Shown piece after piece: positions 59,266 to 63,967 of a DNA stretch of 64,000 nucleotides. The translations under genes and the position numbers were made by a program. A model generated the notes under the pieces. The model had not been told where the DNA came from. It saw only the letters and a list, made by a program, of their open reading frames with translations, and ran no database searches. The DNA comes from Aliarcobacter sp. Lineage in GTDB: Bacteria; Campylobacterota; Campylobacteria; Campylobacterales; Arcobacteraceae. Every line of letters starts with the position of its first letter. The stretch's first letter is position 1. The stretch covers positions 161,636 to 225,635 of the forward strand of contig JAQTXB010000004.1 of NCBI GenBank assembly GCA_028688995.1. The letters run 5' to 3'.

Positions 59266-59895
59266 ATGGAAAAAACATTTATGGAAGCTATGGATTTTAG
59301 ACACGCGTGTAAGATTTTTGATGAAACAAAAAAAGTTAGTGATGAAGATATGAACTATATTTTAGAAGCAGGAAGAAAATCGCCATCTTCTTTTGGTATG
59401 GAAGCTTGGAAATTTTTAGTTATTACAAATGAAGAGCTAAAAGCAAAACTTAAACCTGCTTGTTGGGATCAAGTTCAAATTACATCTTGTTCTCATTTAG
59501 TTGTTGTTTTAGCTGGAATTGATTGTGTTAAACCAGAATCTGGTGAAGTTGAGAGAAAATTTAAAAGAAGAGAAATGCCTCAAGAAAAATTAGATTTTTA
59601 TATAGGATTATATGCAGGGCATTTAAAAGATACTTTAAGTAGTGATGAAAATATTTATGCTTGGACTGCAAAACAAACAGCATTTGCAGCAGGAAATATG
59701 ATGACAGCAGCAGCAGTTAAAGGTATAGATTCTTGTCCAATTGAAGGATATGATAAAAGTAAAGTTGAAGAGATTTTAGGACTTGATACTAAAAAATATC
59801 AATTATCATTAGTTATTCCTTTTGGATATAGAATAAATGAACAATCAACTCAACTAAGAGAACCTCTAGCAAATATTGTTGAATACATAAAATAA
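59266..59895 (+). CDS. Nitroreductase family NAD(P)H oxidoreductase
   Basis: The 209-residue FMN enzyme has the nitroreductase layout: FRHACKIFDETKKVSDEDMNYILEAGRKSPSSFGMEAWKF at the flavin site, and GNMMTAAAVKGIDSCPIEGYDKSKVEEILGL later, as in NfsB-type proteins. It would reduce nitroaromatics or quinones. It ends the mdaB operon before a strong hairpin. Confidence 0.93.
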   Translation: MEKTFMEAMDFRHACKIFDETKKVSDEDMNYILEAGRKSPSSFGMEAWKFLVITNEELKAKLKPACWDQVQITSCSHLVVVLAGIDCVKPESGEVERKFKRREMPQEKLDFYIGLYAGHLKDTLSSDENIYAWTAKQTAFAAGNMMTAAAVKGIDSCPIEGYDKSKVEEILGLDTKKYQLSLVIPFGYRINEQSTQLREPLANIVEYIK

Positions 59896-59904
59896 CATTT
59901 AATT

Positions 59905-59940
59905 AGTATCTTTTTTTATTTATTAAAAAAAGATACTTTT
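59905..59940 (+). terminator. Terminator of the mdaB operon
   Basis: A perfect 14-bp stem (59905-59918 with 59924-59937; arm AGTATCTTTTTTTA) is followed by TTT, 9 bp after the nitroreductase stop. Confidence 0.85.
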
Positions 59941-60068
59941 ATGATATAACTTAAAAATAAAAATTACTTATTAAATATTTCAGAAAAAAATAATTCAAAA
60001 ATCAAATATAAACCCTTTTAAATAGAATATTATAAAAATTAATAATTTCTTTATGAAATTATTTAAAA

Positions 60069-60102
60069 TGATATTATTGTAATACTATTTAATTATAAAA
60101 TT
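60069..60102 (+). promoter_or_regulatory. Three-part direct-repeat element, copy 1 (upstream of the OmpR-type regulator)
   Basis: TG then ATATTATT (60071-60078), ATACTATT (60082-60089) and ATAAAATT (60095-60102). Starts are 11 and 13 bp apart, exactly as in the copies at 62216 and 63934. The third unit could be the -10 box, with the first two in the position of a pho-box-like activator site. Confidence 0.55.
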
Positions 60103-60133
60103 ACATTAAGAGATATTAATTAAGGAGATTTAC

Positions 60134-60826
60134 ATGAATAGTGTTTTTATAGATATCGCAAATAATAAAAATATTAGTTCAGTTTTACTTATTAGCACTG
60201 ATGTTGAGTATTTGAATAAAATAAAAAAAGTTTTAGGTGATAAATATGATGTTGTTTTTTTTAATAATGATAGATTTTATTTATTAAAAGCTGAAATAAA
60301 TTGTTTTGATTTAATAGTTTTTGATAATAGTAATAGCTTATTACCAAAATTTATAGAAGGGTTTAAACTTACAAGATTATCTAGTTTAAATGTTCCTATG
60401 ATTTTATTAGAAGATGATATTTCAGAAGACCTTTCAATATATAAATTTTCTAATGTTTATTCAATTTTTAATAAAAATGTTGATGAAAAAATTTTACTAG
60501 ATAATATTGAGTTAAGTCTAAACTTTTTGAACTCTAATAAAAAAGTTCAATTTGAAAAAGGATTTTATTTTGACATAAATAAAGAGATTTTATTTCAAGA
60601 TAAAAAAATCATTAAACTTACACGAACTGAAAGAAGATTGGTTAGTTTACTTGCTTCAAAAGTAAATACTTTAGTTACATATGAAGACATAGCAGATATT
60701 GTTTGGAAAGGTAAAGAGTTTTCAATCTATTCATTAAGAAATGTTGTTAAACATATTCGAGAAAAAACAGATGAATTATTTATTAAAAATTCATCAAATA
60801 GAGGTTATGTAATTAATACTATTTAG
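60134..60826 (+). CDS. OmpR/PhoB-type DNA-binding regulator with atypical receiver
   Basis: The 230-residue protein has a receiver-like domain (residues 15-125) and a winged-helix domain (135-229: LTRTERRLVSLLASKVNTLVTYEDIADIVWKGKEFSIYSLRNVVKHIREK, SNRGYVI). The possible phospho-acceptor Asp is present (DLIVFDNS). However the N-terminal acidic pair is reduced to one Asp (LLISTDVEY), the Thr/Ser after strand 4 is Leu (MILLEDD), and the Lys is followed by Asn, not Pro. Phosphorylation may therefore not be the switch. AAGGAG upstream supports the start. A repeat element shared with two neighbouring promoters lies before it. Confidence 0.87.
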   Translation: MNSVFIDIANNKNISSVLLISTDVEYLNKIKKVLGDKYDVVFFNNDRFYLLKAEINCFDLIVFDNSNSLLPKFIEGFKLTRLSSLNVPMILLEDDISEDLSIYKFSNVYSIFNKNVDEKILLDNIELSLNFLNSNKKVQFEKGFYFDINKEILFQDKKIIKLTRTERRLVSLLASKVNTLVTYEDIADIVWKGKEFSIYSLRNVVKHIREKTDELFIKNSSNRGYVINTI

Positions 60827-60861
60827 TAGGAATAGATAATTTAATTTAAAAGGAGTTTCTT

Positions 60862-61035
60862 ATGTATAAATATTTACAAATTCTTTGTATTGCTGTTTTA
60901 TTTTCAGGATGTTTTGATTCTAACTCTTTGGAAGATGCAAAACAAATTTGTCTAAAAGATAATAAAAATTTTTACATTGCAGAAACGTTAAATTATCGAA
61001 CAGGAAAATATGAACCAAGAGTTATATGTGAATAA
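60862..61035 (+). CDS. Small lipoprotein, 57 residues
   Basis: AGGAG (60851-60855) lies 6 nt before the ATG of a 57-codon gene. The N-terminus is a lipoprotein signal peptide with lipobox LFSGC (Cys17). The mature part is 41 residues with one more Cys near Lys (QICLKD) and a C-terminal VICE, so a disulfide is possible. It follows the regulator by 35 bp and is probably co-transcribed. I do not recognise the family. Confidence 0.75.
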   Translation: MYKYLQILCIAVLFSGCFDSNSLEDAKQICLKDNKNFYIAETLNYRTGKYEPRVICE

Positions 61036-61037
61036 TT

Positions 61038-62090
61038 CTAGAATTTATTTATAATAATATTGAAGATGACACCATCATTTTTATTTTCAACTTTTATGGT
61101 TCCTTGATTATTTTTTTCAAGGATAGTTTTACAAATATAAAGACCTAAGCCTGAACCATTTTTTTGACTTTTTGTTGAAAAATAAGGGTTGAAAATATTT
61201 GATATGATTTTGTCATCAATTCCTTTTGCATTATCTTCAATAAAAATATTTTGAAATTCATCATCTTCCGAAAATGAGATCTTGATTTGAGGATTTTGAA
61301 TATTTCTTTCTAAAAAAGCATCCCTTGAGTTGTTTAATATGTTTATTATAATTTGAATAATTTCATTTTTATATAAATATCTTTTTGTTAATTCAACATT
61401 TTGAATATCAATATTGATATTTTGTGAATCAAAAGATTTATTTATTAATTTTTGAACATCTAAAACTATTTCAGGTAGAGAAAGTAACTCTTTTTTTGTG
61501 TCAATACTGAAAAAATTTCTAAAATCATCTATTGTAATTGACATGTATTGGATATATTCATTCATCTCATCTAAAACAGTGTTTAAAAACTCTTTATCAA
61601 CTTTATTCATATTATTTTTTAATTTTATTCTACTTAGTATACTTGAAACACAAGCTAATGGCTGTCTCCATTGGTGAGCAATCATTGAAATCATTTCACC
61701 CATTGCAGAGTGTTTTGATTGTAAAAGAACCATTCTTTCTTTTTCTTTTAATTCAGTTAAATCTAAAATAGAAACCATTTTATATTCTTCATTTGAAAAA
61801 GTTATATCTTTGATTTTTATAATTACAGGAATAATATCTCCATTTTTTGTTATTATTGATATTTCTTGAAAGATTTTGCTGTTATATTTTATAAATTTTT
61901 CTTTTGATGTTGGTATTAAAATACCTGTTGCAAGATTTCCTATTAACTCTTTTTTATCATCATATCCTAAAATATCAAGTAAGGATTGATTCATATTTTG
62001 GATAAAACCATTTTTGATTATTAAAATACCTTCTATTGCATTATTTATAATCTCATTTAAATCCATAAAAATTTCAGTTGATTTTTGCAT
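61038..62090 (-). CDS. Cytosolic PAS sensor histidine kinase
   Basis: The 350-residue protein has no membrane helix. An N-terminal PAS domain (about 12-115; IINNAIEGILIIKNGFIQNMNQSLLDILGY) is followed by a short coil and the H-box MIAHQWRQPL with His139, the form common in Campylobacterota kinases. The ATPase domain has an N-box NILNNSRDAF, G1 EDNAKGID, F-box IFNPYFSTK and G2 GSGLGLYIC. The partner regulator is not certain; the nearby OmpR-type protein has an atypical receiver. It converges with the small lipoprotein gene (2-bp gap). Confidence 0.92.
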   Translation of the reverse strand: MQKSTEIFMDLNEIINNAIEGILIIKNGFIQNMNQSLLDILGYDDKKELIGNLATGILIPTSKEKFIKYNSKIFQEISIITKNGDIIPVIIKIKDITFSNEEYKMVSILDLTELKEKERMVLLQSKHSAMGEMISMIAHQWRQPLACVSSILSRIKLKNNMNKVDKEFLNTVLDEMNEYIQYMSITIDDFRNFFSIDTKKELLSLPEIVLDVQKLINKSFDSQNINIDIQNVELTKRYLYKNEIIQIIINILNNSRDAFLERNIQNPQIKISFSEDDEFQNIFIEDNAKGIDDKIISNIFNPYFSTKSQKNGSGLGLYICKTILEKNNQGTIKVENKNDGVIFNIIINKF

Positions 62091-62215
62091 TTATCTCTCA
62101 TAGTTAAAATTTATAGTTTTGTATTTTAACTAAATTTTATAGATAATAAGAAATCCTCATATTTTCCTCAGATTTATGTGTTAGACTTGCAATTCTAAAA
62201 TAAGATTTTTTTAAA

Positions 62216-62249
62216 TGATATTATTTGAATACTATTTATTGATATTATT
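62216..62249 (+). promoter_or_regulatory. Three-part direct-repeat element, copy 2 (upstream of the chemoreceptor)
   Basis: TG then ATATTATT (62218-62225), ATACTATT (62229-62236) and ATATTATT (62242-62249), with the same 11- and 13-bp start spacing as copies 1 and 3. It lies 24 bp before the chemoreceptor ATG. Confidence 0.55.
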
Positions 62250-62273
62250 TAATAAACAAAGAAAGGTGTTATT

Positions 62274-63854
62274 ATGTTTAATTTTACAAAGAATGAAGAA
62301 GAAGCAGGACGATTGAGTGCAATGGATGAAAACTTTGCAATTATATCATTTAAACCTGATGGAACAATATTACATGCAAATGATAATTTTTTAAATGTTT
62401 TAGGTTATAAACTCAATGAAGTTGTTGGTAATCATCACAGAATGTTTTGTGATAAAAAATATATAAGTACAACTGCTTATGCTGATTTCTGGAATAACTT
62501 AAATAAAGGAATATCTCAAATAAATGAGTTTGAAAGAATTAGAAAAGATGGTAGTTCTGTTTGGATTCAAGCTTCATATACTCCTGTAAAAAATAAAAGT
62601 GGAAAAGTAACAAGGGTTGTTAAATTTGCACAAGATATTAGTGAAGCAAAAAAAGTAATAGATGCAGTTAAAAAAGCTATTGAATTAGCAAAAACAGGTA
62701 TATTAAAACAAACTATTATAGAATCAACTAAAAATGAAGGGATAGAAGAGCTTAAAAATGGTGTTAATGATTTATTTGAAATTGTATCTTCAAAAGTTGA
62801 TGGTGATTTAAATAAAATATCAGATGCTTTAACATCTTTTCAAAAATTAGATTTTAGACATAGAATAACAGGAAATAGTTTGGGAGAAGTTTCTGTTGGA
62901 TTAAATAATCTTGCTAATGTTGTAAATGATATGCTAGTAGAGAATAAATCAAATGGATTAACACTTGACAAAAGTTCAGATATTCTTTTATCAAATGTAG
63001 ATAAATTAAATATAAGTTCAAATGAAGCAGCAGCAAGTCTTGAAGAAACAGCAGCAGCACTAGAAGAAATAACATCAAATATTAGAAATAATACACAAAA
63101 CATAGCAAAAATGGCTAGTTATTCAAGTAGTGTAACTGCATCAGCCCATGATGGAGAAAAACTAGCAAATGAAACAACAGTTGCAATGGATGAAATAAAT
63201 GTACAAGTTAATCTAATAACAGATGCAATTTCAATAATAGACCAAATAGCATTCCAAACAAATATTCTTTCATTAAATGCAGCTGTTGAAGCAGCAACAG
63301 CAGGAGAAGCAGGGAAAGGGTTTGCAGTAGTTGCAGCAGAAGTAAGAAACTTAGCATCTCGTTCAGCAGAAGCAGCTAAAGAGATAAAAAGTATTGTAGA
63401 AAATGCAACAAAAAAAGCAAATCAAGGTAAAGATATAGCAAATAATATGATAAGTGGATATAAAGAGTTAAATCAAAATATATCTCAAACTATAAATTTA
63501 ATTTCTGATATAGAAATGTCAAGTAAAGAACAACTTTCAGGAATAGAACAAATAAATGATGCAGTAAATAGTCTTGACCAACAAACACAACAAAATGCTA
63601 GTATTGCATCTCAAACCCATGATGTAGCTGTAATAACAGATGAAATAGCAAAATTAATTGTATCTAATGCTGATTCAAAAGAGTTTGTAGGTAAAAATGA
63701 AGTTAAAGCTAAAAATATAAATGTAAAATCTAACTCTTCTTATGAGGTAAAAAATAAATCAGTAATACATAAAAAAATTGAAGAAAAAGTAAAAAAACAA
63801 GAAACAAAAATATCTACAAATAAATCAAATGATGGAGAATGGGAAAGTTTTTAA
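62274..63854 (+). CDS. Cytosolic PAS-domain methyl-accepting chemotaxis protein
   Basis: The 526-residue protein lacks membrane helices. An N-terminal PAS domain (about 17-125; [27 protein letters not shown], ending VVKFAQDIS) suggests an internal redox, light or ligand signal, as in Aer-like receptors. The signalling hairpin (about 230-470) contains [41 protein letters not shown] Lys/Ser-rich linker of about 50 residues ends in the C-terminal pentapeptide EWESF, an x-W-x-x-F tether for the CheR methyltransferase. AAAGG upstream of the ATG fits. It probably shares regulation with the upstream OmpR-type gene. Confidence 0.93.
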
Positions 63855-63868
63855 AACTTTCCTTTTTC
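63842..63868 (+). terminator. Terminator of the chemoreceptor gene
   Basis: GGAAAGTTTT (63842-63851) and AAAACTTTCC (63853-63862) form a perfect stem that includes the stop codon and is followed by five T. Confidence 0.7.
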
Positions 63869-63933
63869 CCCTAAAATTCTCTCTGATTTCTCTCACATTT
63901 ATATATTATTATTTTATATTAAAAAATTTAAAT

Positions 63934-63967
63934 TGATACTATTATAATATTATTTATAGATAAAATT
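63934..63967 (+). promoter_or_regulatory. Three-part direct-repeat element, copy 3 (upstream of the next gene)
   Basis: TG then ATACTATT (63936-63943), ATATTATT (63947-63954) and ATAAAATT (63960-63967), again with 11- and 13-bp spacing. The window ends in AAAAAAGGAGAA, a ribosome-binding site, so a plus-strand gene must start a few bases beyond 64000. Confidence 0.55.

Follow-up and report, generated by a model that had tools for sequence, protein, structure and literature searches.

In Escherichia coli, the phosphorylated response regulator PhoB activates promoters in which a pho box, made up of two 11-bp direct repeats just upstream of the -10 box, replaces the -35 element. Here we describe an element of comparable layout in a 64,000-nucleotide (nt) stretch of Aliarcobacter sp. 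DNA (assembly GCA_028688995.1, contig JAQTXB010000004.1, positions 161,636 to 225,635; hereafter, the window), where it stands at promoters of a signalling gene cluster and has the consensus AAAATGATACTnTTnnaATACTnTTT-N5-TAtAATt. The element shares with the pho box the 11-bp direct repeats by a -10 box and differs from it in sequence and regulon; its binding by a regulator and the resulting activation are putative. The closest box described is that of PceP, an OmpR-family regulator that controls the tetrachloroethene respiration genes of Sulfurospirillum: this box is CTATW-N17-CTATW, and the best-mapped promoter has CTATA repeats six bases apart that overlap the -35 region (PMC7755780). The two cases have in common the phylum, a regulator (in ours a putative one) of the OmpR family, and an 11-bp period, and the ...CTATT-N6-CTATT of our element looks alike, a likeness of the box letters alone; unlike the PceP box, the element has signalling genes as targets, a full half-site TGATACTnTT, and only two adjacent units before the -10 box.

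One gene of the cluster codes for RR-A, an atypical response regulator of the OmpR/PhoB family, for which there are described counterparts. RR-A shares its fold and the degenerate state of its receiver with the orphan regulators CosR of Campylobacter jejuni, its top fold match in the PDB, and HP1043/HsrA (2hqr) of Helicobacter pylori, which is also listed there; it differs from them in that it is confined to 14 of the 101 genomes of its family that we surveyed, and its identity to them in the fold alignment is only 16-20%. CemR/HP1021/Abu0127, likewise an atypical response regulator and studied in Arcobacter butzleri, is described as redox controlled and as affecting energy conversion (PMC11334517, PMC12632262); we set it beside RR-A by description only, without a link to the box. 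RpoN, FlgRS, and FliA/FlgM are all missing from Arcobacter species through loss, and what regulates the flagellar genes in these bacteria is described as unknown (PMC9321776). A literature search for an Arcobacter regulon of the kind reported here found no description of one.

A direct-repeat element next to a predicted -10 box

The sequence-only reading of the window, made from its letters and open reading frames (ORFs) ahead of our analysis, had reported a three-unit direct repeat at three promoters of the cluster. All three copies are present with the exact 11-bp and 13-bp spacings (Table 1). The coordinates then given for the ATA starts, 60069, 62216, and 63934, are those of a leading TG, and the ATA begins 2 bp later; this TG stands before the first unit of every copy, as had been said of each unit, while among the later units it is found only before unit 3 of copy 2. 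The two direct half-sites are 11 bp apart, a period that is exact in the window copies and conserved in 79 further sites that were not used for training (consensus, nnnnAAAATGATACTtTTnTaATACtaTTTtttnnTAtAATtnn). In these 79 sites, self-similarity is 0.77 at 11 bp versus 0.19-0.49 at other offsets, a descriptive figure, since the sites were themselves chosen by the matrix introduced below. The part of the three-unit description that calls for revision is the third unit, ATAwwATT: it is a TAnAAT at a fixed distance from the half-sites, with a near-invariant TA..AT, and is better read as a -10 box than as a third protein site. With two direct half-sites spaced by about 11 bp in a fixed position by the predicted -10 box, the element has the expected layout of an OmpR/PhoB-type operator, which agrees with what had been proposed for the promoters of RR-A and the chemoreceptors.

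Chance similarity in AT-rich DNA had been named as the main caution. In the 2.95-Mb genome, searched with patterns and models and with the reversed pattern as a control, the exact three-unit pattern has three matches, all of them in this cluster; five matches were found when two mismatches were allowed, compared with none for the control, and a looser pattern with at most one mismatch also gave five, all in the same cluster. As a guard against circularity, a matrix was trained on 12 promoters of orthologous regulators from other genomes, with our own genome and its 83% sister excluded, and was run over both strands of the window and the next 10 kb (146,644 positions). The three window copies took ranks 1 to 3, which makes chance similarity very improbable. 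Three further boxed promoters were found in the same gene run, at window-extended positions ~66119 (rank 5), ~68850 (rank 7), and ~69836 (rank 4), and the earlier set of three, correct as far as it went, is therefore incomplete. At least six promoters of the cluster carry the box: those of RR-A, a PAS-domain methyl-accepting chemotaxis protein (PAS-MCP), a 4HB/TarH MCP, a unit of a PAS protein and an NIT-MCP, an HDOD protein, and a Cache MCP. Two sets of 3 million random positions each, one genome-like and one intergenic-like, contained none that scored as high as the window copies; five of the six promoters outscored every random position, and the score of the HDOD promoter was reached by two positions of the first set and three of the second. 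The genome scan that had been suggested as a check, with background frequency as the outcome that would count against the element, thus left it standing. These searches confirm that the element is real and far above chance.

Genes behind the box

The survey covered 101 Arcobacteraceae genomes (G, C, and L numbers are our handles for genomes, contigs, and loci; G000 is the genome of the window). A covariance model built from the regulator promoters only (R1) found boxes family-wide, but it gave weak sites low ranks where the sequence is AT-rich; we therefore used pattern counts, at no more than one mismatch, with the reversed pattern as the control. Simple ORF calls on the fetched loci place nearly all strong sites (59/60) outside ORFs, and most of them no more than 150 nt ahead of a start codon. 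Across the survey, the box precedes mostly signalling genes, which code for chemoreceptors, receivers, kinases, and HDOD and FIST proteins, and it also precedes the gene of a TolC-like protein. A Pfam tally of 42 downstream proteins, one of which (the HDOD protein of our own genome) was added by hand, gave MCPsignal 11, Response_reg 11, PAS 11, HATPase_c 6, HDOD 3, FIST 3, and OEP/OmpA 3. Orthologues of the window PAS-MCP that lie elsewhere, in G084, G090, and a member of another genus (G081), have kept the box, and the box of the TolC-like protein is conserved in our own genome, G092, G093, and G096.

The box of this TolC-like outer-membrane protein (G000:C1:152889; L182, L183, L185) is a variant, TGATACTTTTGTGATACTTCT-N6-TATAAT, and its relatives have OmpA domains. 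A weaker variant was seen at the gene of a giant Calx-beta-repeat protein at G000:C3:37.9k.

The box tracks canonical regulators

RR-C, RR-D, and RR-E are canonical OmpR-type regulators that are widespread in the family and have a common recognition helix, NLKN[IL]ISRLR; membership was defined by a cutoff of our own (at least 121 bits on a model of the DNA-binding domain). Genomes with such a regulator have boxes well above the control, both where RR-A or RR-B, a second atypical family, is also present (98 boxes versus 5 in the control; 19 genomes) and where neither is (57 versus 9; 20 genomes). The three genomes with RR-A/B and no RR-C/D/E member have 4 boxes versus 1, and the 59 genomes with neither regulator type are near background, at 47 versus 31. 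Among genomes lacking RR-A/B, the effect of RR-C/D/E has a permutation p of ~5e-5. The box is also found at the promoters of the RR-C and RR-E genes themselves, for RR-C also in G005, where it is the sole such regulator found.

Our genome has an RR-D gene (G000:C14:1873-2622) whose product matches Response_reg (1.1e-22) and Trans_reg_C (2.6e-13); the acidic pair, Asp, Ser, and Lys are present in its relatives, and RR-D thus combines a complete receiver with a winged helix. In most relatives, an orthologue of the PAS histidine kinase of the cluster lies beside RR-D, divergent or flanking (L201, L203-L209, L211, L212), and in RR-A-free genomes of several genera the two genes are neighbors with a box just beyond RR-D (L203-L205, L207-L209). 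The box downstream of RR-D precedes a receiver or lipoprotein gene in many relatives. The putative binder is, on this genomic evidence, most likely a canonical regulator of the RR-C/D/E type, which here would be RR-D as the partner of the cluster kinase.

Several observations weigh against this assignment. The RR-D promoters that we examined have no box, and our own RR-D is on a separate contig from the cluster in a draft assembly, its adjacency to the kinase being taken from relatives. Five to six boxes were counted in each of two incomplete assemblies, G016 and G089, in which no RR-C/D/E member was detected, and G079 and G083 have a member and 0 boxes. The presence of RR-A/B adds boxes beyond the effect of RR-C/D/E (permutation p of ~0.02). 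Finally, the genomes share descent, so the tests overstate their independence.

A near-universal OmpR paralogue with an RR-A-like recognition helix (own copy at G000:C14:90611) was considered as a binder and rejected: it occurs in members of the genus without box enrichment, and it has no box of its own.

The atypical regulator RR-A

A winged helix is found in RR-A by its Trans_reg_C match (1.3e-7, above the cutoff), and the Pfam search gave no Response_reg match that would mark a complete phospho-receiver. The orthologues all keep the Asp position (D64) but lack part of the acidic pair and have no Thr/Ser. The predicted structure (predicted local distance difference test score [pLDDT], 79.7) has the (beta-alpha)5 topology of a receiver joined to a winged helix, and its best PDB folds are OmpR/PhoB regulators. 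RR-A is thus an atypical regulator of the pseudo-receiver type. We found 15 orthologues, 50-83% identical and set apart by a clean score gap, and the box is 30-40 nt before the ATG in all 15. Every one of the 14 genomes that have RR-A also has a canonical regulator, so the autoregulation of RR-A that the sequence-only reading had proposed is neither established nor needed; RR-A is more likely a target than a binder of the box. What stands of the undescribed regulon linking RR-A to chemoreceptor dosage is a regulon that the papers searched do not mention and that takes in signalling genes more widely; RR-A as its binder is not supported.

RR-B genes adjoin canonical RR-E genes with divergent boxes (L160, L161, L169, L121), a recurrence of the pairing of an atypical with a canonical regulator. 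Several other genera have short proteins (for example, L170:864-1274) in which an RR-A-like winged helix follows a short N-terminal stretch that replaces the receiver.

Model and alternatives

We consider it probable that the kinase and RR-D control the receptors and RR-A through the box. The element would be an operator-promoter module in which head-to-tail half-sites, TGATACTnTT and nATACTnTT, lie 11 bp apart with an A-tract upstream. An OmpR/PhoB-family dimer would bind the half-sites, which adjoin the -10 box (TAtAAT) on its upstream side, and would cover the -35 region; this coverage and the activation are drawn by analogy from OmpR/PhoB promoters, and repression may occur too. Phosphorylated RR-D would then adjust, and probably activate, transcription from putative starts at the signalling genes, namely, several chemoreceptors, the HDOD protein, and RR-A, while elsewhere in the family the same regulation may reach receivers, hybrid kinases, FIST sensors, and the TolC-like outer-membrane protein. 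A single two-component system would thus most likely set the number of receptors made per cell. We extend this tentatively to the Arcobacteraceae, where one kinase/regulator system might be the master dial of the sensory repertoire, with the signalling genes as one regulon and RR-A/RR-B as a lineage-specific second tier. If true, a regulon made up almost wholly of signalling genes and retained from genus to genus as its membership shifts would illustrate the co-ordination of large receptor sets. With a box, a candidate regulator, and a gene list at hand, one can test directly what controls the supply of chemoreceptors in these bacteria.

Were RR-A itself the binder, it would control its own gene and set chemoreceptor dosage independently of phosphorylation, in the manner of CosR/HP1043. 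Its predicted fold matches orphan regulators of that kind, a box stands at the promoter of every orthologue, and within the genus our own tally gives 55 matches versus 3 in the control for the 12 genomes with RR-A, compared with 15 versus 12 for the 16 without it. Such a role is, however, difficult to reconcile with the excess of boxes in the 20 RR-C/D/E genomes that lack RR-A/B or with G027, G078, and G100, which have no RR-A and yet have boxes beside RR-D. Moreover, RR-A occurs without an RR-C/D/E member in no genome, and no box precedes the RR-B genes of G023 and G054, two genomes in which a strong RR-C/D/E regulator is absent; we regard binding by RR-A alone as unlikely. Somewhat more doubtful still is an arrangement in which the two regulators share the box, RR-D as the activator and its target RR-A as a feedback arm that competes or co-binds, with RR-B in a like relation to RR-E in other genera. 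It would account for the additional boxes where both types are present, and RR-B genes do adjoin RR-E genes in G044, G058, G067, G077, and G087, but the recognition helices differ (NLKNIISRLR versus IYSLRNVVKHIREK), and a shared site is therefore not expected.

It is conceivable that the element is a type of sigma-factor promoter, or an AT-rich chance similarity, and no operator at all. Campylobacterota promoters have no strong -35 requirement, which together with the AT-rich background and the conserved -10 box would favor such an origin. The confinement of the three exact copies to one cluster, the matrix ranks of the six promoters, and a reversed control near zero all argue the other way, and the box is tied to one regulator type, whereas no genome can be without its housekeeping sigma factor. 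We consider this origin very improbable, and control by the kinase and RR-D remains our preferred reading.

Genes of the cluster and minor features

The features of the window are collected in Table 1. ORFs similar to that of the small lipoprotein-like protein adjoin RR-D, often behind a box (L124, L190, L203, L208, L209, L212), and its LNYRTGKYE motif turns up again in several genera, next to RR-D and after boxes (L132 among the loci).

Table 1. Boxes and genes of the signalling cluster (window coordinates)
Feature	Position	Strand	Remarks
Box 1	60069..60102	+	TGATATTATTGTAATACTATTTAATTATAAAATT; half-sites TGATATTATT / TAATACTATT, predicted -10 TATAAAAT; ends 31 nt before the atypical regulator ATG; matrix rank 1
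Box 2	62216..62249	+	TGATATTATTTGAATACTATTTATTGATATTATT; 24 nt before the PAS chemoreceptor ATG; matrix rank 3
Box 3	63934..63967	+	TGATACTATTATAATATTATTTATAGATAAAATT; 40 nt before the 4HB/TarH-type MCP ATG; matrix rank 2
RR-A, atypical OmpR/PhoB-family response regulator, 230 aa	60134..60826	+	Trans_reg_C, degenerate receiver
Small lipoprotein-like ORF, 57 aa (...LNYRTGKYE...)	60862..61035	+	conserved alongside the system
PAS histidine kinase, 350 aa	61038..62090	-	Pfam PAS_9, HisKA, HATPase_c
PAS-MCP chemoreceptor, 526 aa	62274..63854	+	MCPsignal 3.5e-38, PAS_9 3.4e-15
4HB/TarH-type MCP, 670 aa	starts 64008, just outside the window	+	4HB_MCP_1, TarH, MCPsignal; heads the chemosensory run

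The matrix hit of rank 6, at 59923, was rejected as a promoter: this weak hit sits 3' of a nitroreductase gene among recurring AAAGATACTTTT repeats (59895-59945) that look terminator-like. Just past the window on G000:C1, a CheA-like protein (L055:2278-3360) has dimerisation, ATPase, and CheW domains and no Hpt domain. The gene before it (L055:1660-2277) codes for a conserved protein of 205 aa that has no Pfam match and might provide the phosphotransfer function.

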